The notes under the pieces are model-generated. The model had not been told where the DNA came from, ran no database searches, and saw only the letters and a list, made by a program, of their open reading frames with translations. This document shows, in pieces, positions 2,721 to 50,172 of a DNA stretch of 60,023 bases. Numbering within the stretch: the first letter of the stretch is position 1; each line of letters starts with the position of its first letter. Source of the DNA: Paludibacteraceae bacterium. GTDB taxonomy: Bacteria; Bacteroidota; Bacteroidia; Bacteroidales; Paludibacteraceae. The position numbers and the translations under genes are program-made. The stretch covers positions 1-60,023 of the forward strand of contig JAFYSB010000002.1 in assembly GCA_017546705.1 (NCBI GenBank), read 5' to 3'.

Positions 2721-3422
2721 ATATCCATATCCCGACTTAGTCACTATCCTTTTCCCATATTGCCCGAGTTTACGGCGCAAGTGGGTGATATGCACATCTA
2801 CAGTACGCTCCATCACAAAACCATTGCTATCCCACACATTCTTCAATAGATGCTCACGCGAGAGTATCTGCCCGCGATGGGTAAGCAGATAGCAGAGCAG
2901 TTCTATCTCCTTGCGTGTCATAACTACTGCTTCTCCATCCACCTTGAGCGACATATCCGCTTTATTCACTACAATTCCTTCGAATACAATTGTTGAACTA
3001 TTCTGAACTTCTGAACTACTCTGAACAGCCGTCTTCAGCGTTGCCGAACGGCGAAGAACTGCCGCCACGCGTGCCAACACTTCTGCTATACGGAAAGGCT
3101 TGCTGATATAGTCATCGGCACCCAACTTAAATCCTTGTAGCACAGTATCCTCATCGCTCAATGCCGTTAGGAATATAATTGGCGGAATATGGTTTTCACT
3201 TTTCAGCTTTTCCGCCATCTCTAACCCCGATATCTCGCCCATCATAATATCTAGCAGAATCAAGTCAATCTCATGATTCTTGATGCTTAATTCATAATTC
3301 TCCAAAGCTTCTTCTGCGGAGTGTGCAATAAGTGTTTTGTATCCTGCTTTTTGCAACGAATAGGAGAGGATCATGCAAATATCCTCTTCATCATCTACTA
3401 TTAGTATGCGTTGTTCGGCCAT
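2706..3422 (-). CDS. OmpR/PhoB-family response regulator
   Basis: 238 residues when started at the ATG at 3422, which gives the canonical MAEQRILIVDDEEDI N-terminus; upstream in-frame codons overlap rlmD and are not expected to be used. The receiver domain has acidic residues Asp10/Asp11, phospho-acceptor Asp58 (LILLDIMM) and the KPF lysine. A winged-helix DNA-binding domain fills the C-terminal ~95 residues (RKEIELLCYLL, SREHLLKNVW, HLRRKLG). Two short tandem arrays are translated: one near residues 41-51 in the receiver domain and one in the linker (about 132-144). It is the partner of the kinase at 1861-2637. Confidence 0.93.
   Translation of the reverse strand: MAEQRILIVDDEEDICMILSYSLQKAGYKTLIAHSAEEALENYELSIKNHEIDLILLDIMMGEISGLEMAEKLKSENHIPPIIFLTALSDEDTVLQGFKLGADDYISKPFRIAEVLARVAAVLRRSATLKTAVQSSSEVQNSSTIVFEGIVVNKADMSLKVDGEAVVMTRKEIELLCYLLTHRGQILSREHLLKNVWDSNGFVMERTVDVHITHLRRKLGQYGKRIVTKSGYGYMFSV
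2991..3028. repeat. Octamer array TTCTGAAC in the response-regulator linker
   Basis: Four degenerate copies of an 8-base unit (TTGAACTA, TTCTGAAC, TTCTGAAC, then CTCTGAAC after two extra bases). On the minus strand they encode a Ser/Gln/Asn-rich linker between the receiver and the winged helix. The frame is kept although the unit is not a multiple of three. Confidence 0.75.
3271..3303. repeat. Degenerate heptamer array (TAATTCA type) inside the receiver domain
   Basis: Units TGATTCT, TGATGCT, TAATTCA, TAATTCT follow each other at 7-base spacing and are translated as YELSIKNHEI, just before the beta-strand carrying the phospho-acceptor Asp58. The receiver domain is a few residues longer than usual here. 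The unit resembles the AATTC arrays at 13532-13573 and 52820-52847. Confidence 0.6.
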
Positions 3423-3442
3423 ATAGATGCAATTGATGATAG

Positions 3443-4852
3443 TTATCGCTTTTCCAACAATACTACATTCTCCACATGATGCGTATGAGGGAACATATCC
3501 ACTGGTTGCACTTTCACCACACGGTATTTGACATCCAACATATTCAAATCGCGTGCCTGCGTAGCAGGGTTGCAACTCACATACACAATGCGCTTGGGCT
3601 CGGCAAATAAAATCGTATTCACCACATCCTCGTGCATACCTGCACGAGGTGGGTCAGTAATAATTACATCTGGGCGCCCATATTGCGCGATAAAGTCCTC
3701 ATTTAAAATGTCCTTCATATCGCCTGCGAAGAATAGGGTATTATCCAACTTATTAATCTTCGCATTAACTTTGGCATCCTCAATTGCTTCTGGAACATAC
3801 TCAATACCAATCACTTGGCGTGCTTGGTGTGCTACGAAATTGGCAATGGTGCCTGTACCTGTATAGAGGTCGAATACCAATTCGTTGCCCGTCAGTCCTG
3901 CAAACTCACGTGCTACTTTATAGAGCTCGTATGCCTGCAAGGTATTGGTTTGGTAGAAGGATTTAGGGCCTACCTTAAACTGCAGATTCTCCATCTGCTC
4001 CATGATATGGTCTTGCCCGTGAAAGACATGCACTTCTTGGTCGCCGATGGTGTCATTAAACTTGCGATTCACCACATACAACAGACTGATAATCTCAGGG
4101 AAACTATCGCGGACATACTCCATTACGCGCATATCAGGTTCGTCTGCCCATACTATGATGAGCATAATCTCACCCTTATGGTTTGAGCGCAGAATCAATG
4201 TACGCAGTTGTCCCTCGTGCGCGTGCTCATTATAGAAGGTGATACCCAATCCTCGTGCATACTCGCGTATGCCATTGCGGATGCGGTTGTTAATATCGGG
4301 CATAAGGTGGCACTCGGTAATATCCAATACCTTATCAAAGCAGTTCGGGATATGGAAACCTAGTCCGTGACTGTTGTCCACGTTTTCTAATCCGCCTGCG
4401 GCGCGGATCGCATCCCAACTCAGCCATTTGCGATCAGAGAAGGTAAACTCCAACTTATTGCGGTATTCATACACCTCCTTACTACCGAGGATAGGGGAGA
4501 TCTCGGGGAGTTCAATCTTACCGATACGCGTAAGATTGTCCACAATCTGCTGTTGCTTATGGCGCAATTGCTCTTCATAAGGTAGTATTTGCCACTTGCA
4601 ACCACCGCACTCGCCATAGTGCTTGCACACAGGCTCGCACCGCACAGGTGATGGCTTCACGATACGCTCCACACGTCCTTCCATAAACGAGTGTTTCTTG
4701 CGTGTTACCTGTATATCCACAATATCGCCAGGTACGCAGTAAGGCACAAATAGCACCATATCATCCACACGCGTAAGGGCTTTGCCCTCAGCAGCTATAC
4801 CCGTAATCTCAATATTTTCCAATAATGGTAAATTCTTTTTCTTTTTCATCAC
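3443..4852 (-). CDS. rlmD: 23S rRNA (uracil-1939-C5)-methyltransferase RlmD family
   Basis: 469 residues. An N-terminal TRAM domain (about 8-65) is followed by the iron-sulfur motif CEPVCKHYGECGGC and the SAM-dependent methyltransferase domain: DLYTGTGT SAM-binding loop, TDPPRAGMH, and the catalytic-cysteine motif VYVSCNPAT. It methylates a uracil of large-subunit rRNA; the family also contains tRNA-directed members (TrmA/RlmC-like), so the exact position is an inference. It ends 21 bases before the response-regulator start on the same strand and may be co-transcribed with it. Confidence 0.92.
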   Translation of the reverse strand: MMKKKKNLPLLENIEITGIAAEGKALTRVDDMVLFVPYCVPGDIVDIQVTRKKHSFMEGRVERIVKPSPVRCEPVCKHYGECGGCKWQILPYEEQLRHKQQQIVDNLTRIGKIELPEISPILGSKEVYEYRNKLEFTFSDRKWLSWDAIRAAGGLENVDNSHGLGFHIPNCFDKVLDITECHLMPDINNRIRNGIREYARGLGITFYNEHAHEGQLRTLILRSNHKGEIMLIIVWADEPDMRVMEYVRDSFPEIISLLYVVNRKFNDTIGDQEVHVFHGQDHIMEQMENLQFKVGPKSFYQTNTLQAYELYKVAREFAGLTGNELVFDLYTGTGTIANFVAHQARQVIGIEYVPEAIEDAKVNAKINKLDNTLFFAGDMKDILNEDFIAQYGRPDVIITDPPRAGMHEDVVNTILFAEPKRIVYVSCNPATQARDLNMLDVKYRVVKVQPVDMFPHTHHVENVVLLEKR

Positions 4853-4857
4853 TTTTT

Positions 4858-4908
4858 ATTTCTAACTTCTAACAGCACTGCGGTCTCTCAGCCGAAGGCG
4901 GTCTAATA
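4858..4908. repeat. Intergenic repeat of the TCTAACA/GGTCTAA family
   Basis: Two heptamers TTCTAAC are followed by AACAGCACTGCGGTCTC, then the mini inverted repeat GCC-GAA-GGC and GGTCTAA. The same building blocks (CTAACAGC, GCCGAAGGC, GGTCTA) occur in frame in dsbD at 24541-24602 and in rlmB at 23036-23080. It fills the gap between the amidase stop and the rlmD start. Confidence 0.7.
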
Positions 4909-4914
4909 TCTATT

Positions 4915-7851: not shown

Positions 7852-7871
7852 AGTGAATTATAAATATGCTA

Positions 7872-7944: not shown

Positions 7945-7973
7945 CATTCATTTCTTATTATATGAACAGCAAC

Positions 7974-10041: not shown

Positions 10042-11157
10042 TTACTCCACCACTATACACCAGCCATATTTGTCTTCTACTCTTCCGTATTGAATGTCTT
10101 GCAGGGTGTGGTAGAGTTTCGTCAATATTGGACCGGGTTTGTCGCCGAAAGAGTAGGTAACATGATGATCTGGGTCAACGACTTTGGTCAAAGGCGAAAT
10201 CACGCATGCGGTTCCGCATGCAGCGGCTTCCTGCATATCTGCCAGTTCCTCGACACGAATCTTACGGCGAGTGACCTTCATGCCCATCTCCTTTGCCAAT
10301 GTCATCAGCGAGTCATTGGTGATGCTTGGCAAGATGGCGCTACTGCGCGGGGTAAGGTACTCGTAGCCTCTAAACTCAGCGGGGTCCCCGATAACGCTCG
10401 CGGCGTTATGGGGTGCTCTTAAACTATAGCCCGTTTTGCGGGCGTTCTCTAAACATTGGGGAGATGTAGGGCGGGGGCTTATTCCAATAAAATTGGAAGC
10501 CGTGCACTCATCAATATACTTATGTGTTTTGGCATCGGTGAACATACACTCATAGCCCATGGCATGCGCGGCTTCGCTGGCACGGAAGGATGCTGCATAG
10601 TTGCCACCGACTTTCCAGCAACCAGTGCCTTTGGGCGCTGCGCGGTCCACAGTACGATTCACTATAGCGGGCATGCCCTTGAAGCCGTTTGGAAAATACG
10701 GACCGATAGGCGTAGGTATAACCACAAACTCGCAATCTTTGCCAGGTCCTACACTAATATCGGGTGTGGTAGCCACCAATAATGGGCGGAAATAGAGGGT
10801 GGCGCCTGTCTCGTAGGGGGGAAGGAAATTGATGTTCTTCTCCAAAGCTAGTAACACCGCTTCGCAAAATAATTCCACGGGCACAGGTGTCATCAGTAGT
10901 CCTTCTGCAGAGTGGTACATACGCTTGGCGTTTTCTTCCATGCGGAAGATGCGCACTTTGCCGTCCACGCCTCGGAAGGCTTTGAGTCCTTCGAAACACT
11001 CTTGTCCATAGTGCAGACCAGTGGCTGCAGCATGGATAGGAATCATCTTGTCGCGTGTGGCATAGGGCTGTTCCCATACGCCATTCTTGCACGCCGCACG
11101 AACAATATAGTCCGTCTCGGTATAGTGAAATGTGAGTTTACTCCAATCTATATTCAT
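10042..11157 (-). CDS. ilvE: Branched-chain amino-acid aminotransferase with in-frame repeat insertion
   Basis: 371 residues; PLP-dependent class IV aminotransferase for the last step of Leu/Ile/Val synthesis. The PLP lysine lies in GCWKVGGNYAAS (Lys182); LYFRPL and ECTASNFIGI are conserved. The segment between ECTASNFIG and YLTPRSSAILPSIT normally consists of a few residues but here holds ~37 extra residues (227-263) encoded by repeats and mini-hairpins. This raises the length from the usual ~335-340. The flanking enzyme sequence is intact, so the gene is probably functional. Its ATG overlaps the wbqC stop by four bases. Confidence 0.95.
   Translation of the reverse strand: MNIDWSKLTFHYTETDYIVRAACKNGVWEQPYATRDKMIPIHAAATGLHYGQECFEGLKAFRGVDGKVRIFRMEENAKRMYHSAEGLLMTPVPVELFCEAVLLALEKNINFLPPYETGATLYFRPLLVATTPDISVGPGKDCEFVVIPTPIGPYFPNGFKGMPAIVNRTVDRAAPKGTGCWKVGGNYAASFRASEAAHAMGYECMFTDAKTHKYIDECTASNFIGISPRPTSPQCLENARKTGYSLRAPHNAASVIGDPAEFRGYEYLTPRSSAILPSITNDSLMTLAKEMGMKVTRRKIRVEELADMQEAAACGTACVISPLTKVVDPDHHVTYSFGDKPGPILTKLYHTLQDIQYGRVEDKYGWCIVVE
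10369..10479. repeat. In-frame composite repeat insertion in ilvE
   Basis: About 111 bases (37 codons). Three CTCTAAAC-type blocks (10369, ~10417, ~10446) separate two inverted repeats: ATAACGC-TCGCG-GCGTTAT with CCCC/GGGG flanks, and GCCCG-TTTT-GCGGGC. The layout equals that of the intergenic element at 2639-2720, with other hairpin cores. The encoded peptide is polar and Pro/Ala/Ser-rich. Confidence 0.8.
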
Positions 11158-11687
11158 ATCTTCATTACGGATTCTGGTCCGTATTCAAATAATATGTCTA
11201 ATATACTTTGTCCGTTGCCGAATGCTTGCTCTAAATCTTGCCCTGCCCAATCTACAGTAGTAATTAGTCTTTGTTCTTGGTTCTTTGCTCCTGGCTCTCG
11301 GTTCGCCATCAGGCGAACGATTACTTCGTGGATTTTCTCGTTGAAATCGACTAAAAAGCGTGTTTCTTGTTCATAGAACGGACGGAAGAAATCTGCATAA
11401 TAATCGAAATATGGTGTGCGTTTGTAGGCACTCACGAGGGCAATCCAATGCTGGTGTTGCCAGCGTTGTTGATAGCTGATCTCCACATCTCTGGTCAACT
11501 GCTTGCTGTCAGCACGCTTCACGGGAACGCTTAAAGTTAGCGGACCATCTGGCGTGGTGATGGTGCAGCGATTACGGTAGGTTTGTTTGGGAAAACTCTC
11601 CATCACCTCAATCTGCACTGTCGATGGATTTGCCAAAAACTGGCGATACCATTCAGCACTACCCATATATGTCGTTGGCAATATCAT
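11154..11687 (-). CDS. WbqC family protein
   Basis: 177 residues matching the WbqC-like family (N-terminal MILPTTYMGSAEWYRQFL, RCTITTPDGPLTLSVPV, HWIALVSAYKRTPYFDYY). Members are often found near glycan-biosynthesis genes, but the biochemical role is not established. Near residues 124-141 a translated heptamer array plus mini-hairpin (NREPGAKNQEQR) interrupts the family sequence. It lies 39 bases after lepB and overlaps ilvE, so it is probably in the prfB operon. Confidence 0.85.
   Translation of the reverse strand: MILPTTYMGSAEWYRQFLANPSTVQIEVMESFPKQTYRNRCTITTPDGPLTLSVPVKRADSKQLTRDVEISYQQRWQHQHWIALVSAYKRTPYFDYYADFFRPFYEQETRFLVDFNEKIHEVIVRLMANREPGAKNQEQRLITTVDWAGQDLEQAFGNGQSILDILFEYGPESVMKI
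11267..11318. repeat. Heptamer array (GTTCTTG type) plus mini-hairpin in wbqC
   Basis: Units GTCTTTG, TTCTTGG, TTCTTTG, CTCCTGG, CTCTCGG follow at exact 7-base spacing (11267-11301), then the inverted repeat GTTCGCC-ATCA-GGCGAAC (11301-11318). The unit is the same as in the signal peptide of the phosphoesterase (48100-48134), in mutS2 (46951-46985, opposite strand) and between argE and argB. Confidence 0.85.
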
Positions 11688-11726
11688 CTTTTGGAATCAG
11701 GATTCTAGACTCGGGACGCAATGTTT

Positions 11727-13115: not shown

Positions 13116-13129
13116 CTATATGTGTGTAT

Positions 13130-13816
13130 TTAACTAAGGATTACTTCAGAAAATTCATGCCAACCTATCTTGCCTTTCATCCATTCAGCTGCAATCACGG
13201 CGCCGAGGGCAAAACCTTTGCGTGATTTGGCTGAGTGGCTGATGGTGATGGTATCGACCTCGCTATCCCATGTGATGGTGTGTATGCCTGGCACTTCGCC
13301 CTCGCGGATAGACTCAATATCGGTTACAGGAAGACGCTCTTCGCCAATAGCCTCTTGCAATGTCTTGGCGGTGCCGCTGGGGGCATCCAATTTATGGATA
13401 TGGTGCACTTCGGTCATGTGAGGCGTATAATTAGGGTATGTCTCCATGAATTTCGCCAATTGCTTGTTGAGGGCGAAAAGAAGGTTTACGCCAATACTAT
13501 AGTTGGACGACCACATTAAGCCGCGGTCAGAGTTCTTCGTTCTTAATTCAAAATTCTTAATTCGAAATTCCTCAATCTTCCATCCCGTGGTACCACAGAC
13601 CACTGGTACGCCTGCTGCCCAAGCACGCAATACATTTGCTTCTGCTGTTTGAGGGGTAGTAAATTCAATGGCTACATCTGCAGAGGCGAATGCAGCGGAG
13701 TGGAAGTCCTCCGTATTATCTTTATCAATGATACATACAATCTCATGTCCACGCTCAAGAGCAATGGACTCGATGATATGTCCCATTTTGCCGTATCCGA
13801 TGAGTGCTATCTTCAT
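13130..13816 (-). CDS. dapB: 4-hydroxy-tetrahydrodipicolinate reductase with translated heptamer array
   Basis: 228 residues; NAD(P)H-dependent reductase of lysine/diaminopimelate synthesis. The nucleotide-binding GYGKMG, EFTTPQ, CGTTGW, SSNYSIGVNL, VHHIHKLDAPSGTA (catalytic His and Lys) and FALGAVIAAEWM motifs are present. The helical segment between CGTTGW and WSSNYSIG (residues 82-95) is encoded by six 7-base repeats, yet the two flanking catalytic motifs are intact. It follows prfB by 11 bases. Confidence 0.95.
   Translation of the reverse strand: MKIALIGYGKMGHIIESIALERGHEIVCIIDKDNTEDFHSAAFASADVAIEFTTPQTAEANVLRAWAAGVPVVCGTTGWKIEEFRIKNFELRTKNSDRGLMWSSNYSIGVNLLFALNKQLAKFMETYPNYTPHMTEVHHIHKLDAPSGTAKTLQEAIGEERLPVTDIESIREGEVPGIHTITWDSEVDTITISHSAKSRKGFALGAVIAAEWMKGKIGWHEFSEVILS
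13532..13573. repeat. Six-unit heptamer array (ATTCNNA type) inside dapB
   Basis: GTTCTTC, GTTCTTA, ATTCAAA, ATTCTTA, ATTCGAA, ATTCCTC: six units at exact 7-base spacing, 42 bases, so 14 codons. On the minus strand they encode a peptide with a seven-residue period (FRIKNFE/LRTKNSD). Confidence 0.85.
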
Positions 13817-13827
13817 TGTTATGATTG

Positions 13828-21646: not shown

Positions 21647-22295
21647 GTGCTTGTATGATTTGTAGTATTTCGGATGGATGATGTATCATGTAATTAGGCT
21701 GTGCTGTCGCCAACTGTTCTTCCGTGCAGAATCCCCATGTGCAGAGCACAAGAGTAGCTTTTGCTGCCTTAGCAGTTTCCGCATCCACCAGCGAATCGCC
21801 GATATAGAGGCAATTTTCAGTTGATAGTTGATAGTTGACAGTTGATAGAATATCGTATACGATTTGCGGATCGGGTTTGCGAGGGACATTCTCGCGTTCG
21901 CCTAATACTACGTCAAAGATACCAGGGAATAGCTGAGCTACAATCTTTTCGGTGGCTGCTTGGTATTTGTTAGACGCCACTGCCAGTGTATGCCCTGCGG
22001 CTTTCAATGTCTGTAGCAGTTCGGCAACACCATCGTATGGGTGGGTAAGATCGCAGTTGTGTGCATCGTAGTAAGGCACGAAATGCTCACGCAAACGCAG
22101 CACCGTAGCTTCGTTGCGATGCTCCTCTGGCAGGGCCCGCTCAATGAGCTTGTTGATGCCATTGCCAACTAAGCGAGGGTAGTCCGCAATCTCGTGCGTA
22201 GGGAATCCACATGCTGACAATGCATGGTTGCATGCTTGTCCCAAGTCATCAATCGTATTGATGAGTGTGCCGTCTAAGTCAAAAATTATTAACAT
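21639..22295 (-). CDS. gph: HAD-family phosphatase, phosphoglycolate phosphatase type
   Basis: 218 residues from the ATG at 22295 (MLIIFDLDGTLINT); a longer upstream frame lies within rlmB and is rejected. The HAD motifs DLDGT, VASNKYQAATEKIV and GDSLVDAETAKAA are clear, with a helical cap domain. 2-phosphoglycolate is the usual substrate of the closest family, but related enzymes use other phosphates. The loop before YIGDSLVDAE contains a translated AGTTGAT heptamer array (residues about 151-159). It overlaps rlmB by 7 bases. Confidence 0.88.
   Translation of the reverse strand: MLIIFDLDGTLINTIDDLGQACNHALSACGFPTHEIADYPRLVGNGINKLIERALPEEHRNEATVLRLREHFVPYYDAHNCDLTHPYDGVAELLQTLKAAGHTLAVASNKYQAATEKIVAQLFPGIFDVVLGERENVPRKPDPQIVYDILSTVNYQLSTENCLYIGDSLVDAETAKAAKATLVLCTWGFCTEEQLATAQPNYMIHHPSEILQIIQAHE
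21819..21846. repeat. Four AGTTGAT heptamers in gph
   Basis: AGTTGAT, AGTTGAT, AGTTGAC, AGTTGAT at exact spacing. On the minus strand they are read as STVNYQLST. The same unit forms the array at 23555-23589 in dsbD. Confidence 0.9.
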
Positions 22296-29151: not shown

Positions 29152-29184
29152 TGTATTTAAGTTTTTTTAGTTTATATTCTTGTT

Positions 29185-29220
29185 TTAAGGACTTTAAGGT
29201 CTTTAAGGACATTAAGGTCA
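29185..29220. repeat. Four 9-base units (TTAAGGNCT type) in the dnaK leader
   Basis: TTAAGGACT, TTAAGGTCT, TTAAGGACA, TTAAGGTCA at exact 9-base spacing, in the 5' untranslated region between the putative promoter and the dnaK ATG. Confidence 0.85.
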
Positions 29221-30288: not shown

Positions 30289-31428
30289 TTATCTTTGGTA
30301 TTCTACTCGTGGCCAAAGGTTACCGTCGGCATCAAACAGCTGCAAATCATCCAACGAACGGATGCTGATTGCCCAATCATCTGCTGCTGGATCGTAGCGA
30401 GCATTATCGTTGTAGTAACCCAAGATACCTACTACATCGCCTACATATTTAGGACAATTAGTAATACCGTTTTTGTCCGCACCAGGCAAATAGAAATACG
30501 CAAATTTAGCATACTCTGATGACGATATAACGGTCTTGTTACCGTTAGCATCAGCTATGATACGTCCTTGAGGATAACCTATATTCTCGGTAGTAGGAGC
30601 AAAGACATTGGCATTCGTATCGTCTTCTGGATTGCCAGTAGAGCATTTGGAAACTGTACCGTTTGACTCAAAATACTCGCCTGTATAGTGCACGTTCTTG
30701 ATGCGCACTAATTTGGCATCCCACTTGCGTGTTTCTTGTAGGTTGAGTACGGAAGTGAACTCCTTGATTTCATACTCATCATATACCAATTGGCTCACAT
30801 CTGGTTTACCAATACATTGTGTGCGTGCTCTAAATATAGCGAGTGGAATACGACCTGGTGCCCAACCTATCTTTTGCTCTGCATTGTTAGCATAGATATT
30901 GTTGTTGTATGAAGGCAAACAGAGTTGTGGTTGGTTGGCATAGCGACCAATTGCTAATCCATCCACACGAATCAAAATCTCTTGACCAATCTGATATAGT
31001 CCACCAACAGATCCTGCATCTATAGATAAACGCAGGGCTTGTTGTTCGCCATCTACAATCTGCTGAATACACATAGCTTTGTAGAAGTTACCTGCATAGT
31101 CATCGGTAGTTACGCGACCATGGATATAGATTGGCTTGTCGGATACAGGAATAGTGTCAATCGAGAAGAGGTAATTTTTACCATCTTTAGTAGCACGTGT
31201 ACGATACAAGGTGGTGTCACTAAGATAATTACCTTTCTCGGTCATAAACGAATCTTTGAATTGCTCCAACGTGAGCAAAGTACCTTGGCTGATAAGTTCA
31301 TCGGCTTGATCTTCTGTGAGGAAGAGGCTACTCTCATCAATTGCGGAAGGAGTACACGATAACATGAACCCAAAGCAAAGAACCAAGAGCAAAGACAATT
31401 TGGATATATTAAATATTGACTTTTTCAT
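30289..31428 (-). CDS. DUF5689 domain lipoprotein
   Basis: 379 residues. A lipoprotein signal peptide (core LSLLLVLCFGFML, lipobox LSC at residue ~25) is followed by a DUF5689-like N-terminal half (IYIHGRVTTDDYAGNFYKAMCIQ, with GWAPGRIPLAIF) that resembles OB-fold regions of Bacteroidetes surface proteins. It starts 5 bases after the stop of a TonB-dependent receptor, a common pairing in this phylum. It is probably an outer-membrane accessory protein; the substrate is unknown. The hydrophobic core of the signal peptide is encoded by a heptamer array (31367-31394). Confidence 0.85.
   Translation of the reverse strand: MKKSIFNISKLSLLLVLCFGFMLSCTPSAIDESSLFLTEDQADELISQGTLLTLEQFKDSFMTEKGNYLSDTTLYRTRATKDGKNYLFSIDTIPVSDKPIYIHGRVTTDDYAGNFYKAMCIQQIVDGEQQALRLSIDAGSVGGLYQIGQEILIRVDGLAIGRYANQPQLCLPSYNNNIYANNAEQKIGWAPGRIPLAIFRARTQCIGKPDVSQLVYDEYEIKEFTSVLNLQETRKWDAKLVRIKNVHYTGEYFESNGTVSKCSTGNPEDDTNANVFAPTTENIGYPQGRIIADANGNKTVISSSEYAKFAYFYLPGADKNGITNCPKYVGDVVGILGYYNDNARYDPAADDWAISIRSLDDLQLFDADGNLWPRVEYQR
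31367..31394. repeat. Heptamer array encoding a signal-peptide core
   Basis: AACCCAA, AGCAAAG, AACCAAG, AGCAAAG at exact spacing. Read on the minus strand as Leu-Val-Leu-Cys-Phe-Gly-Phe, within the h-region of the lipoprotein signal peptide. Confidence 0.7.
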
Positions 31429-36174: not shown

Positions 36175-36207
36175 TATCTTCGGGGTATCTTCGGGATATC
36201 TTCAGGG
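36175..36207. repeat. Three 11-base units TATCTTCGGGG between dnaB and asnS
   Basis: TATCTTCGGGG, TATCTTCGGGA, TATCTTCAGGG at exact 11-base spacing in the asnS leader. The period matches the four 11-12-base families at 58058-58260. Confidence 0.85.
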
Positions 36208-36228
36208 AATCCCTCCATGAATAGTTGC

Positions 36229-41850: not shown

Positions 41851-43011
41851 TCAATGGATTCGTTCTGCGAATATAAGGGTAGGTTTGGTAGCAATACGTG
41901 CACCGATGAGGAAATGGCTGTCAGATTCTTGCACTTTGAATTTCTTGCGCAGTTCTTCTGGCGTGAGCGGATAGTTGCGTGTAAGTATAGCTGCTCGTTG
42001 TATGCCTAACGCAGCAATATCGCGTTGATTCTTAATGGGTTGTGCTATTACTTTCCACACACGTCCTGGGAAATCTTCAATGAGTTGGTCGGCGGTATAG
42101 AGGTGGGTATTGTGGTCTAACTTGTATAGTTTATACCGCTCGCTCACCAATCGAAATGCGCCTGCTTTGATGATAGCTGCGTTGGGCTCATAAATATACT
42201 CACATATGCAGTCTGCCATAGCACACAAAGCACTCTTTTCTTCGCTACGAGTAAAACTAAATTGGTCGTTTCCTTCGTGAAGAATATTGACAGCATGAAT
42301 ACGATTATTGCCTGTGACGAAGATGATTTCTTTCACTTCATTATGCAGCGCAACCACATGCACATCCCATTCATTTCCAAGCGATTGCAAGGCGGAAGTA
42401 ATATCCAGCATGGGGCTGAATTTAATAAGAATGGTGTTGGAAATGGCGCGAAGGGATGGTGAAATTTTGATAATATTGGGTTCGCAATCTTCAATACGAA
42501 AAACTTTACCTCCATGTGCATCTCTGCGTGCTGGGTCAAGATAGACAACGACCTCCTTTTTTACGTCGGACGACACGCTTCCTGCCAACGGATATTGAGC
42601 CAAAAAATCTTCTGCCGAAGTATTGTGGACGTGGATTGGTTTGTTGGCAATCTGGAAGTTATGTTGTGCTATGCGACACAACTCCTCGTTGCGTTCCACG
42701 TAGTGCGCTTGCGCCATTTGTTCGCTGAGAAAATAGGTATCCACGCCATAGCCTCCAGTCAGGTCAATCAGTATATCTTGCTTCTCGCCTAATTGCCTAA
42801 TAATCGCGGCTTTATAGCGTGCTGTGGCTTCGCTCGAACATTGCTCGCAGGACAAGCGAACGGGATACCACCAATCCTCTATTTGTGCAAACGTAGGTAA
42901 CTTGTCATGGGTGCGTTGACGCCCCTCCACTTGTTGGAGCATCCATCGCCATTCCTCGTCGGAGAGATGTACGAATCGTTTACGCTGCAATGCCAATTCC
43001 TCTACTTTCAC
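41851..43011 (-). CDS. SAM-dependent methyltransferase with THUMP-like C-terminal domain
   Basis: 386 residues, GTG start at 43011. A Rossmann methyltransferase domain with DILIDLTGGYGVDTYFLS and VYLDPARRDAHGGKVFRIEDCEPNI is followed by a C-terminal THUMP-like region (KAGAFRLVSERYKLYKL ... LTPEELRKKFKVQES). The substrate is unknown; RNA is suggested by the THUMP-like part. A heptamer array lies directly before the start codon, and no ATG precedes it. It follows DUF721 by 16 bases. Confidence 0.85.
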   Translation of the reverse strand: MKVEELALQRKRFVHLSDEEWRWMLQQVEGRQRTHDKLPTFAQIEDWWYPVRLSCEQCSSEATARYKAAIIRQLGEKQDILIDLTGGYGVDTYFLSEQMAQAHYVERNEELCRIAQHNFQIANKPIHVHNTSAEDFLAQYPLAGSVSSDVKKEVVVYLDPARRDAHGGKVFRIEDCEPNIIKISPSLRAISNTILIKFSPMLDITSALQSLGNEWDVHVVALHNEVKEIIFVTGNNRIHAVNILHEGNDQFSFTRSEEKSALCAMADCICEYIYEPNAAIIKAGAFRLVSERYKLYKLDHNTHLYTADQLIEDFPGRVWKVIAQPIKNQRDIAALGIQRAAILTRNYPLTPEELRKKFKVQESDSHFLIGARIATKPTLIFAERIH

Positions 43012-43039
43012 CTCTAACCTTTAACCTTTAACCTAACAG
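43012..43039. repeat. Heptamer array CTTTAAC between DUF721 and methyltransferase genes
   Basis: CTCTAAC, CTTTAAC, CTTTAAC, CTAACAG at exact spacing. It supplies the TAA stop of the DUF721 gene (GGTTAA on the minus strand) and abuts the GTG start of the methyltransferase gene. Confidence 0.85.
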
Positions 43040-44887: not shown

Positions 44888-44890
44888 TTC

Positions 44891-47293
44891 GTGCTTTATC
44901 CGCATAATATAGAGCAGAAAATCGACTTTCAAGTCATTCGTGATGGCTTGAAAGGGTGTTGTATGTCTTCTTTGGGCAAGGAGCGTGTAGATGCCATGCA
45001 ATGGCTGACACATTATCCTACGGTGCGCGACCTACTGGCACGCGTGCGCGAGATGATGGCTGTGTTGACCGACCCAGCATTGGCATTTCCTCATGGTGAG
45101 ATATATGATTTGCGTGAGGCATTGTCGCGTATTCGTATCGAAGGCCTCTTTATGGACGAGGCCGAGCTCTTCTCTTTGCGCAAGATGCTCGACTATGCAG
45201 GGCAATTGGAGCGATTCTTTGCTACGTTGGATAAGGCAAAATATCCGCTGCTGAGTCAGGAGTCGGGAGACGGGTGGCTCAATTCTTTGGAGTCGCGAGT
45301 CGAGAGTCGCGAGTCTAATATTGGTTTCCTCATCGCATCGATTGATGCGATACTTGACCGTTATGGCAAGATGCGTGACAATGCATCGCCAGAACTAGCT
45401 CGTATCCGCAAAGAGATTTCCGCTTCGCAGGGCTCTGTTAGCCGTGCGCTGAACGCTATTCTTCGTCAGGCGCAAGCGGAGGGAATATTGGATAAGGATG
45501 CTGCACCTACTATGCGTGAGGGTAGGTTAGTGCTTCCTGTGCCACCTGCCTACAAACGTAAGATTGGCGGTATCGTGCATGATGAGTCGGCTACGGGTAA
45601 GACAGTGTTTATCGAACCTCAACAAGTGGTAGAGGCGAATAACCGTATCCGCGAACTAGAAGGCGAAGAACGTCGTGAACGTATGCGTATCTTGATGGCT
45701 ATCACGGCAGAGATACGTCCGCAGGTGCCGCAGATATTGGAGACAGAGACTTATCTGGGTGAGGTGGATTTTCTGCGTGCTAAAGCCCTCTTTGCGATTG
45801 ATATGCACGCCATAGTGCCAGAGATTAGCAAGAAGCCAATGATTGATTGGCGCGAGGCATATCACCCTGTGCTATTGCTCAATTTCCGTCGTCAAGGTAA
45901 GACCGTTGTCCCCTTGACTATCCGCCTCACGGATAACCGAATACTGGTTATTAGTGGTCCTAACGCGGGTGGTAAATCCGTGTGTTTGAAGACTGTAGCG
46001 ATGTTGCAATACATGCTGCAATGCGGTTTGCCAGTGCCGATGAGCGAAGCCAGCCAAATGGGCTTTTTCAAACAACTCTTGATTGATATAGGCGATGAGC
46101 AATCGATAGAGGATGACCTCTCTACTTACTCGTCTCACCTGCGCAATATGAAGCATTTCGTGCGTTATGCCGATGCACAAACACTCTTGTTGATTGACGA
46201 GTTTGGTACAGGTACCGAACCTATGATAGGTGGCGCGATAGCAGAAGCAGTGCTTTCGCAACTCAACGAGCAACATGCTTTTGGTGTTATCACTACCCAC
46301 TATGGCAATCTCAAACACTTGGCTGAGCGTACCGAAGGTATTATCAATGGCGCGATGCTCTATGACCGCGGTCAGCTTAAACCTCTGTTCCAATTGTCTA
46401 TAGGTCAAGCAGGTAGTAGTTTTGCGGTGGAGATTGCTCGCCAGATCGGTTTGCCTGAGACGATTATCCAACGCGCAACTGAAATTGTGGGCGAGGAGCA
46501 TATCGACTACGACAAACATTTGCAAGACATAGCTCGCGATAAACGCTATTGGGAGAATAAACGCCAGAATATCCGCCAAAAGGAGAAACATTTGGAGGAG
46601 AAGATCGCCCACTACGAGGAGCAGATGGCGGGTATCAAAGCCAAGAAACGTGCTATCCTTGAGGAGGCAAACGCCGAGGCGGCCGACCTCTTGCGCAAGA
46701 GCAATGCTACCATTGAGCGCACTATCCGCGAGATCAAGGAAGCAAAGGCTGAAAAGAAAGCCACCCAAGCTGCACGACAGAAAGTGGAGACATTGAAGAC
46801 GAAGGTCACTGCTAGTAGTCTGACAGCGAAGCGTTCTGCCAGCAAGGCGAGCCAACAGCAAAGCGAGCCAACAGCAAAGCGGTCTAATAACAAGGTTCTT
46901 CGCGATTTGAGCGAGTTGAAGGTATTGACAAAGAATCCTGCTAAGTTGATTCAGGAACAAGGAACCAAGAGTCAGGAGCAAAGACGAGTTAGTAATGTGG
47001 CGGATGAACTACGCCGCCGCAAATTGTCGTTTAGTCGCGAGTTGGATATCCGTGGACTCCGTGTGGACGAAGCATTAGAAGCCGTAATGGCATATGTGGA
47101 TGATGCATTGATGGTGAATGCCGAGCAAGTGTCTATCTTACATGGCACAGGCACTGGCGCGCTGAAGCAAGTGGTGCGTGACTATTTAGCAGAACGTCAG
47201 AAGAGTATGCGTCGTCTGAAATCAGGCGATATCTCCTTCCACGACGGCGATCCCGACCGTGGAGGTGCTGGAATTACAATAATCGAATTATAA
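44891..47293 (+). CDS. mutS2: Endonuclease MutS2 with three translated repeat arrays
   Basis: 800 residues with a GTG start; this gives the usual LYPHNIEQKIDFQVIRDGL N-terminus, and the first ATG is 24 codons later. MutS-type core, Walker A SGPNAGGKS (near 356), LLIDEFGTGTEP, a long coiled coil (about 540-640) and a C-terminal Smr nuclease domain (LDIRGLRVDEAL, HGTGTGALK, from ~716). MutS2 acts on branched DNA or on collided ribosomes, depending on species. Residues ~121-143, ~645-666 and ~687-699 are encoded by tandem arrays that lie in the N-terminal domain and in the linker before Smr. Confidence 0.95.
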   Translation: MLYPHNIEQKIDFQVIRDGLKGCCMSSLGKERVDAMQWLTHYPTVRDLLARVREMMAVLTDPALAFPHGEIYDLREALSRIRIEGLFMDEAELFSLRKMLDYAGQLERFFATLDKAKYPLLSQESGDGWLNSLESRVESRESNIGFLIASIDAILDRYGKMRDNASPELARIRKEISASQGSVSRALNAILRQAQAEGILDKDAAPTMREGRLVLPVPPAYKRKIGGIVHDESATGKTVFIEPQQVVEANNRIRELEGEERRERMRILMAITAEIRPQVPQILETETYLGEVDFLRAKALFAIDMHAIVPEISKKPMIDWREAYHPVLLLNFRRQGKTVVPLTIRLTDNRILVISGPNAGGKSVCLKTVAMLQYMLQCGLPVPMSEASQMGFFKQLLIDIGDEQSIEDDLSTYSSHLRNMKHFVRYADAQTLLLIDEFGTGTEPMIGGAIAEAVLSQLNEQHAFGVITTHYGNLKHLAERTEGIINGAMLYDRGQLKPLFQLSIGQAGSSFAVEIARQIGLPETIIQRATEIVGEEHIDYDKHLQDIARDKRYWENKRQNIRQKEKHLEEKIAHYEEQMAGIKAKKRAILEEANAEAADLLRKSNATIERTIREIKEAKAEKKATQAARQKVETLKTKVTASSLTAKRSASKASQQQSEPTAKRSNNKVLRDLSELKVLTKNPAKLIQEQGTKSQEQRRVSNVADELRRRKLSFSRELDIRGLRVDEALEAVMAYVDDALMVNAEQVSILHGTGTGALKQVVRDYLAERQKSMRRLKSGDISFHDGDPDRGGAGITIIEL
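45253..45317. repeat. Two heptamer arrays (GAGTCGC) in the mutS2 N-terminal part
   Basis: GAGTCAG, GAGTCGG, GAGACGG (45253-45273), then after 16 bases GAGTCGC, GAGTCGA, GAGTCGC, GAGTCTA (45290-45317). Translated in frame as LLSQESGDG and LESRVESRESN. Confidence 0.9.
46824..46887. repeat. Four 16-base units in mutS2
   Basis: Units CAGCGAAGCGTTCTGC, CAGCAAGGCGAGCCAA, CAGCAAAGCGAGCCAA, CAGCAAAGCGGTCTAA, exactly 16 bases each. Because 16 is not a multiple of three, each copy is read in a different frame; the peptide TAKRS therefore recurs only after three units. All frames are open. Confidence 0.95.
46951..46985. repeat. Heptamer array (CAAGGAA) before the Smr domain of mutS2
   Basis: TCAGGAA, CAAGGAA, CCAAGAG, TCAGGAG, CAAAGAC at exact spacing; the reverse complement of the TTCCTTG unit of wbqC and the phosphoesterase. 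Peptide IQEQGTKSQEQRR. Confidence 0.9.
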
Positions 47294-47306
47294 AATCAAA
47301 TATGAT

Positions 47307-48023
47307 ATGAAAAAATGCGTTTTAATATTTGCTCTTGCATCCTTGCTCCTAGCTCCAGCGGCATTGGCACAAGTGCAGCCTGGGGATGCGACATACAGCG
47401 TGTCGCTGCATGCGGGCTATGGGCATAACCTAACTTATGGCTCGATGGCGAACTTTGATATTGATGCGTATTTGCCTATCAATCAGCATTTTGATATGCA
47501 AGCGAATATCCGTACCAGTACGGCGAATGTACATACATTGGGCGTGCAATTGCGACCTAAGTTTGCGTTGCCTGTGGGCGAGTTGTATGTGGAAGATCGA
47601 CTGATGATGCGCTTCGCTCAACGAGATAACTACCACGACTTTGTACATGCCATCTCTTTGGGCTATATGATGCAATATGTGAATGTGCAAGTGGGTATGT
47701 CCAATCGTATCATTACTCCTCTGCCCTATACGAATCACAGCGAAGATGCGATGATATTAGAGCCCTTTGATGCCGTATATCGCGTGGAGGCCTTTGTGCG
47801 TCCGCAAAGCGAATCATGGAATATCAGTTTGTGTGTGTCGAATATGGACAACTACCAGATTGAACGTATGTGGCAACCGATGTTTTATCTAGGCGGTTGG
47901 TACGATGTGAATGAGCATTGGCGCGTACGTCTATCGGGTAAAATGAAACTGGCAGGTATGTTCCACCTCAATGCACACTACTATGGTGCCGAACTGCGTG
48001 CGGGAGCGGAATACCGATTTTAG
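47307..48023 (+). CDS. Outer-membrane beta-barrel protein, function unknown
   Basis: 238 residues. Signal peptide MKKCVLIFALASLLLAPAALA, then alternating amphipathic strands with aromatic girdles (YSVSLHAGYGHNL, YVEDRLMMRFAQRD) and a C-terminal strand ending in Phe (ELRAGAEYRF), as expected for a small barrel. No family assigned. It lies 13 bases after mutS2. The TAG stop is part of a TTTAGTGTTTAG repeat. Confidence 0.75.
   Translation: MKKCVLIFALASLLLAPAALAQVQPGDATYSVSLHAGYGHNLTYGSMANFDIDAYLPINQHFDMQANIRTSTANVHTLGVQLRPKFALPVGELYVEDRLMMRFAQRDNYHDFVHAISLGYMMQYVNVQVGMSNRIITPLPYTNHSEDAMILEPFDAVYRVEAFVRPQSESWNISLCVSNMDNYQIERMWQPMFYLGGWYDVNEHWRVRLSGKMKLAGMFHLNAHYYGAELRAGAEYRF
47331..47358. repeat. 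Degenerate heptamer array in the barrel-protein signal peptide
   Basis: GCTCTTG, CATCCTT, GCTCCTA, GCTCCAG at 7-base spacing encode ALASLLLAP. The units resemble the GTTCCTTG family but are more diverged. Confidence 0.5.
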
Positions 48024-48064
48024 TGTTTAGTGAATGCGCCTGTGGCGCTACTGTTTAGTGTTTA
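48021..48064. repeat. CTAAACA/mini-hairpin element after the barrel gene
   Basis: TAGTGTTTAGTGAAT, then inverted repeat GCGCC-TGT-GGCGC, then TACTGTTTAGTGTTTA. In the reverse complement this is CACTAAACAGTA-GCGCC-ACA-GGCGC-ATTCACTAAACACTA, the same design as 2639-2720 and 49418-49475 with another core. Confidence 0.85.
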
Positions 48065-48080
48065 AAACATATACGAAATT

Positions 48081-48986
48081 ATGAAAAAGAATATACAAAT
48101 TGGTCTTGGTTCCTTGTTCCTTGTTCTTGGTTCCATCTTTACCGCGTGCGGACCAGATGCGAGATTGGATATGGTGGGTATGTTTGCGGGGTCATCTCCT
48201 ACAATAGACAAACGTTTTGAGCAGTCGATGGAGTATAACAAGCAAGCAGGATATGCCACGATTCAAGCCCCATCGGAGAACTACCATGTGTATGTATGTA
48301 CCGATACCCATATCCACCAGACCCGCAAGCGTTGGGAGCACTTTATCAATGCCTATCGTGGAGACAAACTGTGTCCTCTAACAGTGCATTTGGGCGATAT
48401 TATCGATGCTACAACCGATTTTGGATATATTGAGGAGGCATTGGAGCAACATCCTCTGACTGCTATACTACCTACCAAACCTGATACGCTGATGGCTGTA
48501 TGTGGCAACCACGACATCTATTTCAAGCAATGGGGACAGTTTGTTAAGACTTTCAAGACGAGTAGCTATTATTTTATAGTGGAGACCCCTTCTGGTGCGA
48601 AGGACTTATTCGTAGTTTACGATTCCGCCGATGGCACCATAGGCAGCAAGCAATTGCAATGGCTCCGTGAGACATTGGTTTGGGCTGAGTCGCAAACCTT
48701 TCGTCATATCATAGCATGCACCCATACGCACTTTTTCAAACGTGATGGATCGCAAGGTCATACTTCCAACTATACTTTGGAAGAGACGTATGCGCTATTA
48801 AACCTCCTGACTGAGCATGGTGTTGAGATGCTATGGTCTGGACATGACCATAGTCGTGAAATCACACAGGTAAAAGACATGACTTGCATTATTGTAGATT
48901 CGATGACCGAAGAGGACGATGAACCGTATTATATGGTGGTTAGCATGGGAGGTAAGGTGGAGTATGAGTTTGTGGCAGTGCCATGA
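48081..48986 (+). CDS. Metallophosphoesterase lipoprotein
   Basis: 301 residues. Lipoprotein signal with core LGSLFLVLGSIFTAC. A calcineurin-like phosphoesterase domain has the metal ligands DTHIH, LGDIID, GNHDIY, CTHTHFF and SGHDHS. The substrate is unknown; envelope location is inferred from the lipobox. The signal-peptide core is encoded by a heptamer array (48100-48134). It lies 7 bases before folK. Confidence 0.9.
   Translation: MKKNIQIGLGSLFLVLGSIFTACGPDARLDMVGMFAGSSPTIDKRFEQSMEYNKQAGYATIQAPSENYHVYVCTDTHIHQTRKRWEHFINAYRGDKLCPLTVHLGDIIDATTDFGYIEEALEQHPLTAILPTKPDTLMAVCGNHDIYFKQWGQFVKTFKTSSYYFIVETPSGAKDLFVVYDSADGTIGSKQLQWLRETLVWAESQTFRHIIACTHTHFFKRDGSQGHTSNYTLEETYALLNLLTEHGVEMLWSGHDHSREITQVKDMTCIIVDSMTEEDDEPYYMVVSMGGKVEYEFVAVP
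48100..48134. repeat. Heptamer array (TTGTTCC) encoding a lipoprotein signal core
   Basis: TTGGTCT, TGGTTCC, TTGTTCC, TTGTTCT, TGGTTCC at exact spacing. It produces the seven-residue period LVLGSLF/LVLGSIF in the h-region. Confidence 0.9.
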
Positions 48987-48993
48987 TAAGACG

Positions 48994-49425
48994 ATGATTA
49001 TATATTTGGGCATAGGGACTAACTTGGGCAATCGCGAGGAGAATCTCCGCAAAGCCGTCGAACTGCTGCACGAACGAGTGGGGGAGTGTATCGCTTGTTC
49101 GTCTGTGTACAGGAGTGCTCCACAAGGATTTGTGTCGGAGAATGAGTTTGCGAATATCGTTGCGGTGTGTCAAACCATTCATTCGCCAGAGGAGGTGCTG
49201 CTCCTGACTCAGCAGATTGAGCGTGAGATGGGACGGACAGAGAAATCAGTCAATGGCGTATATCACGATCGGGTGATAGATATTGACCTACTGCAGGCGA
49301 GAGGAGATGAGGCGATTAGGCGATCAGACGAGAGGCTTATGTTGCCACATCCACGAATGCAGGAGCGAGATTTTGTGATGATACCCTTGCGTGAGGTGGA
49401 AGCTATTCTCATCAACGTTCACTAA
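48994..49425 (+). CDS. folK: 2-amino-4-hydroxy-6-hydroxymethyldihydropteridine pyrophosphokinase
   Basis: 143 residues from the ATG at 48994 (MIIYLGIGTNLGNREENL); an upstream frame overlapping the phosphoesterase is rejected. The family signature VIDIDLL and LPHPRMQERDFVMIPL are present. It transfers pyrophosphate from ATP to the pterin in folate synthesis. The loop between the two signatures (about 102-112) is encoded by an octamer array. The stop codon (CACTAA) is the first unit of the following repeat. Confidence 0.93.
   Translation: MIIYLGIGTNLGNREENLRKAVELLHERVGECIACSSVYRSAPQGFVSENEFANIVAVCQTIHSPEEVLLLTQQIEREMGRTEKSVNGVYHDRVIDIDLLQARGDEAIRRSDERLMLPHPRMQERDFVMIPLREVEAILINVH
49298..49329. 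repeat. Octamer array (GATNAGGC) in folK
   Basis: CGAGAGGA, GATGAGGC, GATTAGGC, GATCAGAC at exact 8-base spacing, translated as RGDEAIRRSDE. It is the reverse complement of the GCCTCATC unit in nadE and the pseudouridine synthase. Confidence 0.85.
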
Positions 49426-49475
49426 ACACTAAACAGTAGCGAAGCGTTCACTAAACACTAATCACTAAACACTCA
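49418..49475. repeat. CTAAACA/mini-hairpin element between folK and the synthase gene
   Basis: CACTAAACACTAAACAGTA, core GCG-AA-GCG, then TTCACTAAACACTAATCACTAAACACT. Third copy of the design at 2639-2720 and 48021-48064. Confidence 0.85.
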
Positions 49476-49476
49476 A

Positions 49477-50172
49477 ATGCAAGTATTATACGAAGATAAT
49501 CATATAATTGCTGTTAGCAAGACCTGTCACGAGATTGTGCAGGGCGATAAGACGGGAGATACACCGCTCTCTGAGATAGTGAAGGCGTATATCAAGGAGA
49601 AATACCAGAAACCTGGTGAGGTGTTCCTAGGGGTTACCCACCGCCTTGATCGTCCCACTACGGGCGTGGTGCTCTTTGCGCGGACTAGCAAAGCATTAAC
49701 GCGCTTAAACGCTATGTTTCAATCGCATGAGCTGATACGCAAAACGTATTGGGCGATAGTGCAGACCGCGCCTAATAGCCTCATTGCCTCATCGCCTCAT
49801 CGCCTTGAACATTACCTTTGGCGCAATGAGAAGCAAAACAAATCCTTTGTAGTTAAAGCGGGTACTAAGGATGCGAAACGTGCCGTGCTAAGTTATAAAG
49901 CGATTGCGCAAAGCGATCGATATACATTGCTGGAAATCAATCTAGAGACAGGGCGTCATCATCAGATTCGTTGTCAATTGGCGGCGCTAGGATTACCAAT
50001 CAAAGGCGACTTGAAATACGGAGCTAAGCGCAGTAATCCTGATGGTGGTATCTCATTACACGCTCGCAAGATAGAGTTTGTCCATCCTGTGAGCAAACAG
50101 CCTATTTCTATCACAGCTCCCGTACCCGATGACACGCTATGGCAGGCTCTTGAGCAACAGATAAATGTATAG
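49477..50172 (+). CDS. RluA-family pseudouridine synthase
   Basis: 231 residues. The catalytic motif THRLDRPTTGVVLFARTS contains the essential Asp58; LETGRHHQIRCQLAALGLPIKGD is the second family box. No S4 domain is present, as in TruC/RluA-type short members. The RNA target is not predictable. An octamer array is translated at about residues 100-110 (LIASSPHRL). A hairpin follows at 50202-50235. Confidence 0.92.
   Translation: MQVLYEDNHIIAVSKTCHEIVQGDKTGDTPLSEIVKAYIKEKYQKPGEVFLGVTHRLDRPTTGVVLFARTSKALTRLNAMFQSHELIRKTYWAIVQTAPNSLIASSPHRLEHYLWRNEKQNKSFVVKAGTKDAKRAVLSYKAIAQSDRYTLLEINLETGRHHQIRCQLAALGLPIKGDLKYGAKRSNPDGGISLHARKIEFVHPVSKQPISITAPVPDDTLWQALEQQINV
49775..49806. repeat. Four octamers ATCGCCTC in the pseudouridine synthase gene
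   Basis: ATAGCCTC, ATTGCCTC, ATCGCCTC, ATCGCCTT at exact 8-base spacing. Confidence 0.9.

Follow-up and report, generated by a model that had tools for sequence, protein, structure and literature searches.

Short tandem arrays and hairpin cassettes of changing content at conserved sites in a Paludibacteraceae genome and its relatives

The stretch analysed here, hereafter the window, comprises positions 1 to 60,023 (60,023 nucleotides) of contig JAFYSB010000002.1 from a Paludibacteraceae bacterium, contig 22 of a 2.1-Mb draft genome (82 contigs, 90% complete), and is strewn with short degenerate tandem arrays, above all of 7-bp units (heptads). In this genome and its relatives such arrays occur in clear excess, share unit families, change in length by whole units and differ in content at the same site between close relatives, and one hairpin cassette stands at two sites of a single genome. 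The arrays are not independent accidents, as a handful of unit families turn up again and again across the genome. Since the same spots hold other repeats, or no repeat, in close relatives, repeats are probably being shuffled by an active process, and its best reading, in our judgement evenly poised between right and wrong, is the copying of blocks between sites combined with local slippage. Genomes are denoted below by G-numbers (the window's own genome being G000) and loci by L-numbers.

The abundance of the arrays was assessed by a lag-similarity scan. Within the window, 7 segments were found at lag 7, 2 at lag 8 and 3 at lag 11, against means of 0.05, 0 and 0.05 in 20 fifth-order Markov sequences. 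Our own sample of G000 (460 kb, the window plus 20 stretches of 20 kb picked without regard to arrays) gave 47, 34, 20 and 17 arrays at lags 7, 14, 21 and 11, and only 5 at lag 8 and 7 at lag 9. The best-matching named loci come from metagenome-assembled genomes of the Paludibacteraceae and Bacteroidales, many of them with titles that point to herbivore guts, and the closest is 96% identical over a 1,092-residue protein. In 80 related loci (1.63 Mb), the lag-7 count was 78 and the lag-11 count 49, with at most 15 at each of lags 8, 9, 10, 12 and 13 (13, 15, 7 and 9 at lags 8, 9, 10 and 12). The single simulation that served as control for each of these two samples yielded 0 at every lag for which a count is given. 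These peaks therefore mark two classes, of 7 and 11 bp with their multiples, and 8 bp is minor. The initial annotation of this DNA, made from the window alone, had described many families of short tandem arrays with a spacing of 7 or 8 bp; an excess is borne out against the Markov controls in the window, the 460 kb and the 80 loci, and so is the 7-bp spacing, but the 8-bp arrays have proved a minor class and the 11-bp class had been overlooked.

In 20 loci from other families of the order (296 kb), 19 lag-7 arrays were found, 15 of them in one locus, which is among the four of the 20 that had been placed at matches of a unit search; 7 lag-10 arrays (5 in one locus) were present, and no lag-11 array. 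Fifteen heptad arrays lie within 4 kb of L143 (G041:C158, positions 11093-14831), from another family, and two of the units there, AAACACT and GAACCAA, also occur in the window's genome. In L158 (G060:C1, 10240-10562), again from another family of the order, five 10-bp arrays of the GGAATGAATC and TTAGAGGAAA types are clustered. An artefact of assembly or binning, for which the draft state of the genome with its 82 contigs and 90% completeness might speak, is hardly credible, given that the pattern was found in assemblies from many isolates and studies and that these short arrays have conserved flanks on either side and leave reading frames intact.

The content of the arrays changes quickly. 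We compared five close pairs of loci, about 94% identical in four cases and 91% in one, at 15 7-bp sites with aligned flanks; outside this tally stand sites 23121 and 25473 (L077/L085), 21427 (L108/L109), 23660 (L078/L079) and 21096 (L039/L040), and all sites of 8, 9, 11 and 12 bp. The length differed by whole units at four of the 15 sites (28, 21, 7 and 7 bp), different units occupied the same place at three (all in L108/L109), an array was present on one side only at two, and the difference consisted of a hairpin or cassette at two more; one side was read by eye at site 390, which belongs to the three sites with different units, and at site 2360. The remaining four sites are taken up below.

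The sites within conserved enzymes behaved likewise. At all four in-frame sites tested (Gph, DsbD, FolK and RluA; Table 1), the sequence differs in close relatives and is often a 7- or 8-bp array of another kind; the P values given for the relatives' arrays refer to 4,000 random 44-base draws from our own sample. The Gph site holds GGTTGAA/GGTTTAT heptads in G073 (P 0.0018), and the DsbD linker holds CCTCTCA heptads in G025 (P 0.004) and other sequence with no array in G073, the DsbD-like proteins of G025, G014 and G073 being 90-92% identical. This linker is shorter in 21 other aligned members of the genus, the alignment having drawn on 25 loci of the 38 genomes with a match; the Gph and DsbD family assignments rest on matches that score below the curated cut-offs. 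The FolK loop carries CACTCAT heptads in G014 (equalled in 0 of 4,000 draws) and heptads in G025 (P 0.004) and G073 (P 0.019), and in L285, from the one further genus member that shares the neighbourhood, it is of similar length with no evident array. Heptads at lag 7 were likewise found in the RluA-type loop of G025 (P 0.005) and G014 (P 0.009), and 16 other aligned sequences have no insert there. In the gap between folK and rluA, CTCTAAA/CACTAAA heptads are found in G014, GTAG-type hairpins in G025 and neither in G073, and the N-terminus of the DUF5689 protein is occupied by other heptads in L039/L040, L044 and L048.

Among 53 more distant loci with a FolK match, ten have a 7-bp array inside FolK, with about eight different units; FolK is also the heptad-carrying conserved gene in L073, L077-L079, L101, L106 and L109, and L108, the sister of L109, has no array in it. 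The longest in-frame array seen, with about 12 or more copies of AATCTCC (QISNLQSPISNLQSPISN...), lies in the FolK gene of L106 (locus positions 15454-15542). In L284, the RluA-type enzyme of G034 has an insertion of the heptad type (KLSTVNCQLS) elsewhere in the protein. Of the in-frame arrays listed in the initial annotation, those in the Gph-like, DsbD-like, MutS2, FolK, RluA-type, DapB and WbqC proteins and in two signal peptides were recovered, although those in the response regulator, WbqC and DapB are weak (Tandem Repeats Finder scores 31-55); the second array claimed for DsbD is a 17-bp repeat (x 2.1; 24539-24575), and neither scan lists an array in NadE (24933-26900). The proposed activity holds in so far as the arrays of close relatives are identical at some sites and not at all of them.

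The units themselves point to a vocabulary common to the genome. At a looser threshold, the 53 arrays of our own sample fell into 26 exact unit families, and the largest one-mismatch cluster comprised 18 of the 53, against a mean of 7.35 and a maximum of 10 in 100 shuffles of the letters of the units. That each unit family recurs at distant sites, as had been claimed, does not hold throughout: 17 of the 26 exact families consist of a single array (10 of these 17 fall within one-mismatch clusters). The window's units include CACTAAA and AGTTGAT; TAACTGA is not among them, and a TAACTGA-like unit was seen in L073, L077 and L085. With at most one mismatch, CACTAAACACTAAA has 175 matches in G000, where its reversed control has 4, and 0 to 50 in each of 36 other genus members searched; the reversed form is itself common in some members (63 in G005), and the genomes therefore favour different units. 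The GCTGACG family (GCTGACGGCTGACG) has 1 match in G061 and 38 in G062, with loci L108/L109 aligning at about 94%.

Heptads also frame hairpins that resemble repetitive extragenic palindromic (REP) elements, and they do so in register, so that arrays and REP-like hairpins together form composite dispersed repeats. At 2649, 48019 and 49416, TTTAGNG heptads are followed by a core of RA[CT]G, a stem-loop and CTAYNG, after which heptads resume, and the 29-bp repeat at 2649 is a composite of heptads and stem-loop. On the opposite strand this module becomes CNGTAG-stem-CGTY, an arrangement that it shares with GTAG/CGTC-tagged REPs. A genome-wide pattern for the GTAG-foot module gave 71 matches in G000 (43 + 28 by strand, some overlapping) and 0 for the reversed control. 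Sixty-five of the 71 entered the stem analysis, the six omitted being longer readings of the same place or cases with an extra heptad, and 63 of the 65 were parsed. The 44 modules with an inner part of at least 11 bases have a mean perfect stem of 5.09 bp, whereas shuffling the inner part gives 1.45 (at most 1.91 in 2,000 shuffles), and they use 22 stem strings, some nested, in which G-C, C-G, A-T and T-A are all found as inner pairs. Exact 7-bp repeats flank 11 of the 17 modules in our own sample by a regular-expression search, about 4 of 17 being probably chance. A module inside ilvE, overlooked in the initial annotation, accompanies a split of the IlvE family-model match at residues 228-267; the in-frame insertion (10330-10454) holds two hairpins by eye, one with a GCCCG and one with a CCCC-ATAACG stem. 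Identical hairpin modules with identical 24-bp flanks occur at L131:19769 and L132:19177, which may reflect a larger duplication or an assembly overlap.

A second cassette, found in related genomes, reads CTTAG, hairpin, CACGATTA, hairpin, TTTT. The same stretch of about 60 nt stands at two junctions of L079, and L078 lacks both; G066 and G095-G098 have copies that are nearly complete, G065 and G063 have just partial ones, and G064 has none. In 31 distinct contexts, the direct repeats flanking it measured 7 bp in 18 and 14 bp in 8, with no flank repeat of any other length from 4 to 13. The flanking 7-mers vary between copies (gagaatt, gataatt, gatagtt, cacaatt). The cassette is thus often embedded, in register, within heptad arrays, and the units of these host arrays are of several kinds. 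The idea that the cassette itself generates a 7-bp target-site duplication was considered for the 18 copies with 7-bp flanks and rejected, seven solitary cassettes having no flank repeat at all. Near position 1501 of L257, a hairpin cassette adjoins GGTTAGACGGATTCGACCTACG, which is present on both sides and may be a tRNA-end or attachment repeat.

These hairpins raise the possibility that GTAG/CGTC-tagged elements are moved by a Y1 transposase of the kind associated with REPs, heptads being the target or a by-product. The GTAG foot, the CGTY at the other end, the palindrome, the high copy number and the preference for gaps all fit, and REPs between co-directional genes, as well as different REPs at about the same recB site, are described in Di Nocera 2013 (PMC3733652). 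Nevertheless, such transposition is quite improbable, for the Y1 transposase family PF01797 has no match in G000 (90% complete) nor in the array-carrying G014, G016 and G017; in the genus it matches 22 of 61 genomes, mostly with low scores and in 18 above the cut-off; the stems have no common sequence, and hairpin-free arrays are common. As its matches do not track the arrays across the genus, the Y1 transposase was rejected as the motor.

The placement of the arrays was derived from open reading frames called in this analysis; in the own-sample count the gene caller overlooked Gph and FolK, so that array 21819 of the window was scored as intergenic although it is genic. Between co-directional genes lay 52 of the 60 intergenic 7-bp arrays in the relatives and 31 of the 33 in our own sample (30 of 32 after moving 21819 to the genic class), where the shares expected are 0.62 and 0.66 by intergenic length (P 3e-5 and 2e-4) and 0.73 and 0.79 by gap number (P 0.009 and 0.019), all of these P values being too optimistic because related species and sites are not independent. 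Among gaps of 15-150 bp, a 7-bp array was present in 36 of 333 co-directional ones as against 0 of 75 divergent and convergent ones. The arrays often start at the stop codon and finish near the next start.

A position in operon gaps would also suit regulatory sites, that is, heptads bound by an RNA- or DNA-binding protein and kept by selection, and translational regulation has been proposed for TAACTGA repeats (MacGregor 2015, PMC4679880). In the relatives, moreover, 39 of 52 arrays have more G on the sense strand and 6 have less, with background gaps C-rich by 213 to 103. By eye, this bias resides mostly in arrays abutting the stop codon, a position in which an array lacking stops in the sense direction would extend the protein. 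The genome of the window itself has no such bias (14 G-rich, 16 C-rich and 1 tie, n=31), units change at one site between close relatives and arrays also stand in frame in enzymes, all of which makes regulatory sites an improbable explanation. An RNA-level function deduced from the strand bias was rejected, the bias being strong in the relatives and absent in the own genome, and so was an enrichment of stop codons in the units, which is too weak (48 of 52, where 500 shuffles gave 42.4 on average and 48 at most).

The 11-bp arrays are placed differently. They have no co-directional preference (31 of 49 in the relatives, 10 of 16 in our own sample), lie in longer gaps (median 316 bp vs 68.5 bp for 7-bp arrays), are rarer in genes (5 of 58 vs 28 of 94) and are parts of longer dispersed repeats. 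One such repeat of about 80 bp with an 11-bp period has 25 matches in G000, two of them below 40 bp; it is of the TGGTAACGAGA type (L130:8600-8700 and 24 further matches) and ends in GCGGAAAGA, a tail partly in common with TATCCTACGTA arrays. A 44-bp mosaic with an 11-bp period is identical at two sites, which may belong to a larger repeat because their right flanks stay similar for more than 100 bp; two more sites have a related array and a similar right edge. The dnaB gap of the window (Table 1) has counterparts with 11-bp arrays in L039, L043, L045, L048, L056, L104 and L115, and with 7-bp arrays in others.

Under the reading that we favour, copying between sites combined with local slippage, the arrays would be the variable part of dispersed composite repeats. 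Each genome would keep a limited repertoire of units, of 7 bp or, less often, 8 bp, some blocks enclosing a GC-rich REP-like hairpin cassette. Blocks would be copied from existing sites to new ones, the donor presumably being another array of the same genome, and would last only where they are tolerated, in co-directional operon gaps, protein linkers, loops and signal peptides, so that selection would decide where a block survives. At an occupied site, replication slippage may add or drop whole units and a later block may replace an earlier one, which would leave the site conserved and its content not. Recombination, or template switching of the repair type, might bring about the copying, heptads serving as a homology platform for the cassettes, and neither a transposase nor a reverse transcriptase would be the motor.

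The closest rival dispenses with copying. In it, each array arose by chance duplication at its own site, drifted by point mutation and was homogenised by slippage, the polymerase favouring 7. Slippage agrees with the whole-unit length changes at four close-pair sites, as the initial annotation had suggested, and heptamers are a known common class (PMC4679880, citing Mrazek). The 11-bp unit of the dnaB gap drifts while a TATCTT core is kept in the window, L039, L043 and, by eye, L045, and the FolK heptads of 10 of 53 loci seem to occupy one loop, as an old drifting array might. Slippage alone is possible and yet rather doubtful, however, considering that units are shared genome-wide far above shuffled ones, that the period or unit differs at the same site between close relatives, that one cassette stands at separate sites and that one family has 1 match and 38 matches in sister genomes (G061/G062). 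The initial annotation had taken the tight length of the units to suggest one mechanism rather than their shared ancestry; the tight length and the in-frame copies are confirmed, whereas its dismissal of shared ancestry is not supported, given families common across the genome (18 of 53 vs a shuffled maximum of 10) and a cassette of about 60 nt that recurs at two places in a genome whose sister is without both. The fixed-step nuclease and the template-independent polymerase that it named beside slippage are possible mechanisms.

A telomerase-like reverse transcriptase such as DRT10, writing repeats from an RNA template, would explain a fixed repeat length in several families. DRT10 makes tandem-repeat DNA (PMC12632851), and G000 has three matches to RVT_1. 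This domain was found in just 11 of 41 genus genomes and in none of the array-carrying G014, G016, G017, G023 and G073, and the many unit families per genome would require many templates; the idea is thus very improbable, and a reverse transcriptase was rejected as the motor because RVT_1 does not track the arrays.

Several observations weigh against copying between sites. No copy event with an identified donor was seen. Four of the 15 close-pair sites are of equal length, one with a 1-base gap, and show point changes only, and some arrays are therefore stable. The in-frame evidence is uneven, with marginal 8-bp arrays at the Gph site of G014, where the array is the weaker one (P 0.037, lag 8), and in the RluA-type loop of G073 (P 0.037, lag 8), and a DsbD linker in G014 that is heptad-like by eye and not above background (P 0.13). 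The second cassette is solitary in 7 of 31 copies, by eye and with no flank repeats, so the cassette alone does not make heptads, and the placement statistics carry the optimism described above. Shared units could also partly reflect a bias to slippage-prone heptamers, because similar ones recur in another family (L143).

In its strongest form, which we put forward only tentatively and consider less probable than the general reading, the proposal is a transposase-free "contagious array" system, in which pre-formed 7- and 8-bp blocks, together with structure-defined cassettes lodged in register, would be drawn from a genome-wide vocabulary and overwrite earlier arrays at tolerated sites, including enzyme loops, through some undescribed process, tied to replication or repair, by which the step is set at 7; the 11-bp arrays would be a separate class with a different placement.

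The features of the window are collected in Table 1. The gene downstream of the array at 29184 is presumably dnaK-like, and we take the one beside the array at 36175 to be asnS-like. A repeated GCAAAGGTA...TTTGC stretch at 57697-57733, similar in L120 and L138, looks on its opposite strand like a Bacteroidetes promoter (TAnnTTTG).

Table 1. Tandem arrays and hairpin modules located in the window
Positions	Strand	Feature
2649..2717	-	Two REP-like hairpin modules with TTTAGTG/TTTAGAG heptads between and flanking
2654-2675; 2683-2703	-	Hairpins of these modules, stems GCCGCT and GGCGC respectively
2994..3026	-	PhoB-type response regulator; degenerate 8/10-bp repeat, in frame, weak
10368..10454	-	ilvE; in-frame hairpin module (stem GCCCG), second hairpin beside it by eye
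11268..11298	-	WbqC-like protein; 7/14-bp array, in frame (REPGAKNQEQR)
13540..13570	-	DapB; 14-bp (2x7) array, in frame (EFRIKNFELRT)
21819..21848	-	Gph-like phosphatase; AGTTGAT heptad array, in frame
23555..23587	-	DsbD-like protein linker; CAACTGT heptad array, in frame
29184..29217	-	9-bp intergenic array upstream of a presumed DnaK-like gene; not common to L039/L040
30247..30285	+	TTTAGTG/TTTAGAG heptads with short hairpin, adjoining CvpA-type gene
31366..31395	-	DUF5689 protein; signal peptide coded by 7/14-bp array
36175..36211	-	11-bp array (TATCTTCGGGG) between dnaB and a presumed asnS-like gene
43005..43034	-	CTTTAAC heptad array at co-directional gene junction
45253..45315	+	MutS2; GAGTCGG/GAGTCGC heptad arrays, in frame
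46840..46881	+	MutS2; 16-bp array, in frame (ASKASQQQSEPTAKR)
48019..48067	+	Operon gap; TTTAGTG heptads around hairpin (stem GCGCC)
48109..48134	+	Calcineurin-like phosphoesterase; signal peptide coded by GTTCCTT heptads
49295..49336	+	FolK; AGGCGATG 8-bp array, in frame
49416..49476	+	folK/rluA gap, filled by CACTAAA heptads and CAGTAGCGAAGCGTT module
49769..49805	+	RluA-type synthase loop; GCCTCATC 8-bp array, in frame
53935..53965	-	TTGGTTC-type heptads in operon gap
58056..58259	.	Long gap with cluster of 11- and 12-bp arrays; unit TAGCGCAAAGG also in L041, L047, L123

Heptanucleotide repeats of bacteria have long been known without a settled mechanism, and this genus offers a test bed for them, with many species, arrays that change between genomes about 94% identical, fixed in-frame enzyme sites and stems that co-vary within one genome; comparisons in it can tell local slippage from copying between sites. 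The arrays also point to repeat DNA as a source of new peptide loops and signal peptides, and their insertion can mislead gene calling and protein-family comparison.

Much of the background is already in print, namely heptanucleotide repeats, their abundance in some bacteria, the sets of Paludibacter propionicigenes and in-frame copies (PMC4679880), and REPs as well. A literature search that covered few subscription journals returned no report of heptad arrays housing structure-defined hairpins, of differing arrays at the same in-frame enzyme sites, of a split between 7 and 11 bp, or of 11-bp or palindromic repeats in Bacteroidales; the composite repeats, the exchange of arrays at fixed sites in frame and the division into 7- and 11-bp classes look new.

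Among the known systems, the GTAG- and CGTC-tagged REPs, of which the CGTC type is described as having no dedicated transposase (Di Nocera 2013, PMC3733652), share with the present modules the GTAG foot, a short palindrome of 20-40 bp, co-directional gaps and some intragenic copies at shared sites. Known REP families also contain stem variants (PMC3733652), but here the stem is almost free (22 strings in 44 modules, no family consensus), the module sits in heptads in a 7-bp register and, unlike for GTAG REPs, G000 has no Y1 transposase match. DRT10 likewise makes tandem repeats of fixed length (PMC12632851), whereas the arrays described here are chromosomal and in frame and occur in several genomes with no reverse transcriptase match. 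The GGGAATC/GGGGATT repeats of Xanthomonas and Nostoc (Rehm 2015, PMC4692102) are high-copy heptads, mostly between the same genes and differing in length and sequence, but they are G-rich and form quadruplexes, while the units here are mostly A+T-rich. TAACTGA repeats occur in Beggiatoaceae, cyanobacteria and five Bacteroidetes, with two sets in P. propionicigenes (MacGregor 2015, PMC4679880); as here, heptads lie upstream of start codons, have stops in all frames and are in some cases in frame (LSVISYQ), although that system has one fixed heptamer in place of many changing heptamers and hairpins. A further counterpart is the set of long simple sequence repeats with units of 5-11 bp, chiefly heptanucleotides, reported by Mrazek et al. 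2007 (as cited in PMC4679880 and PMC4692102), who proposed that slippage with a polymerase footprint of the size of the repeat explains the 7. Those repeats are also tandem, 7 bp in unit, mostly intergenic, made of genome-specific units and variable in length and sequence at the same gap; by contrast, the arrays of this genus bring many families together, with degenerate units, an 11-bp class and hairpin cassettes in register, and their content differs at fixed in-frame sites of enzymes.

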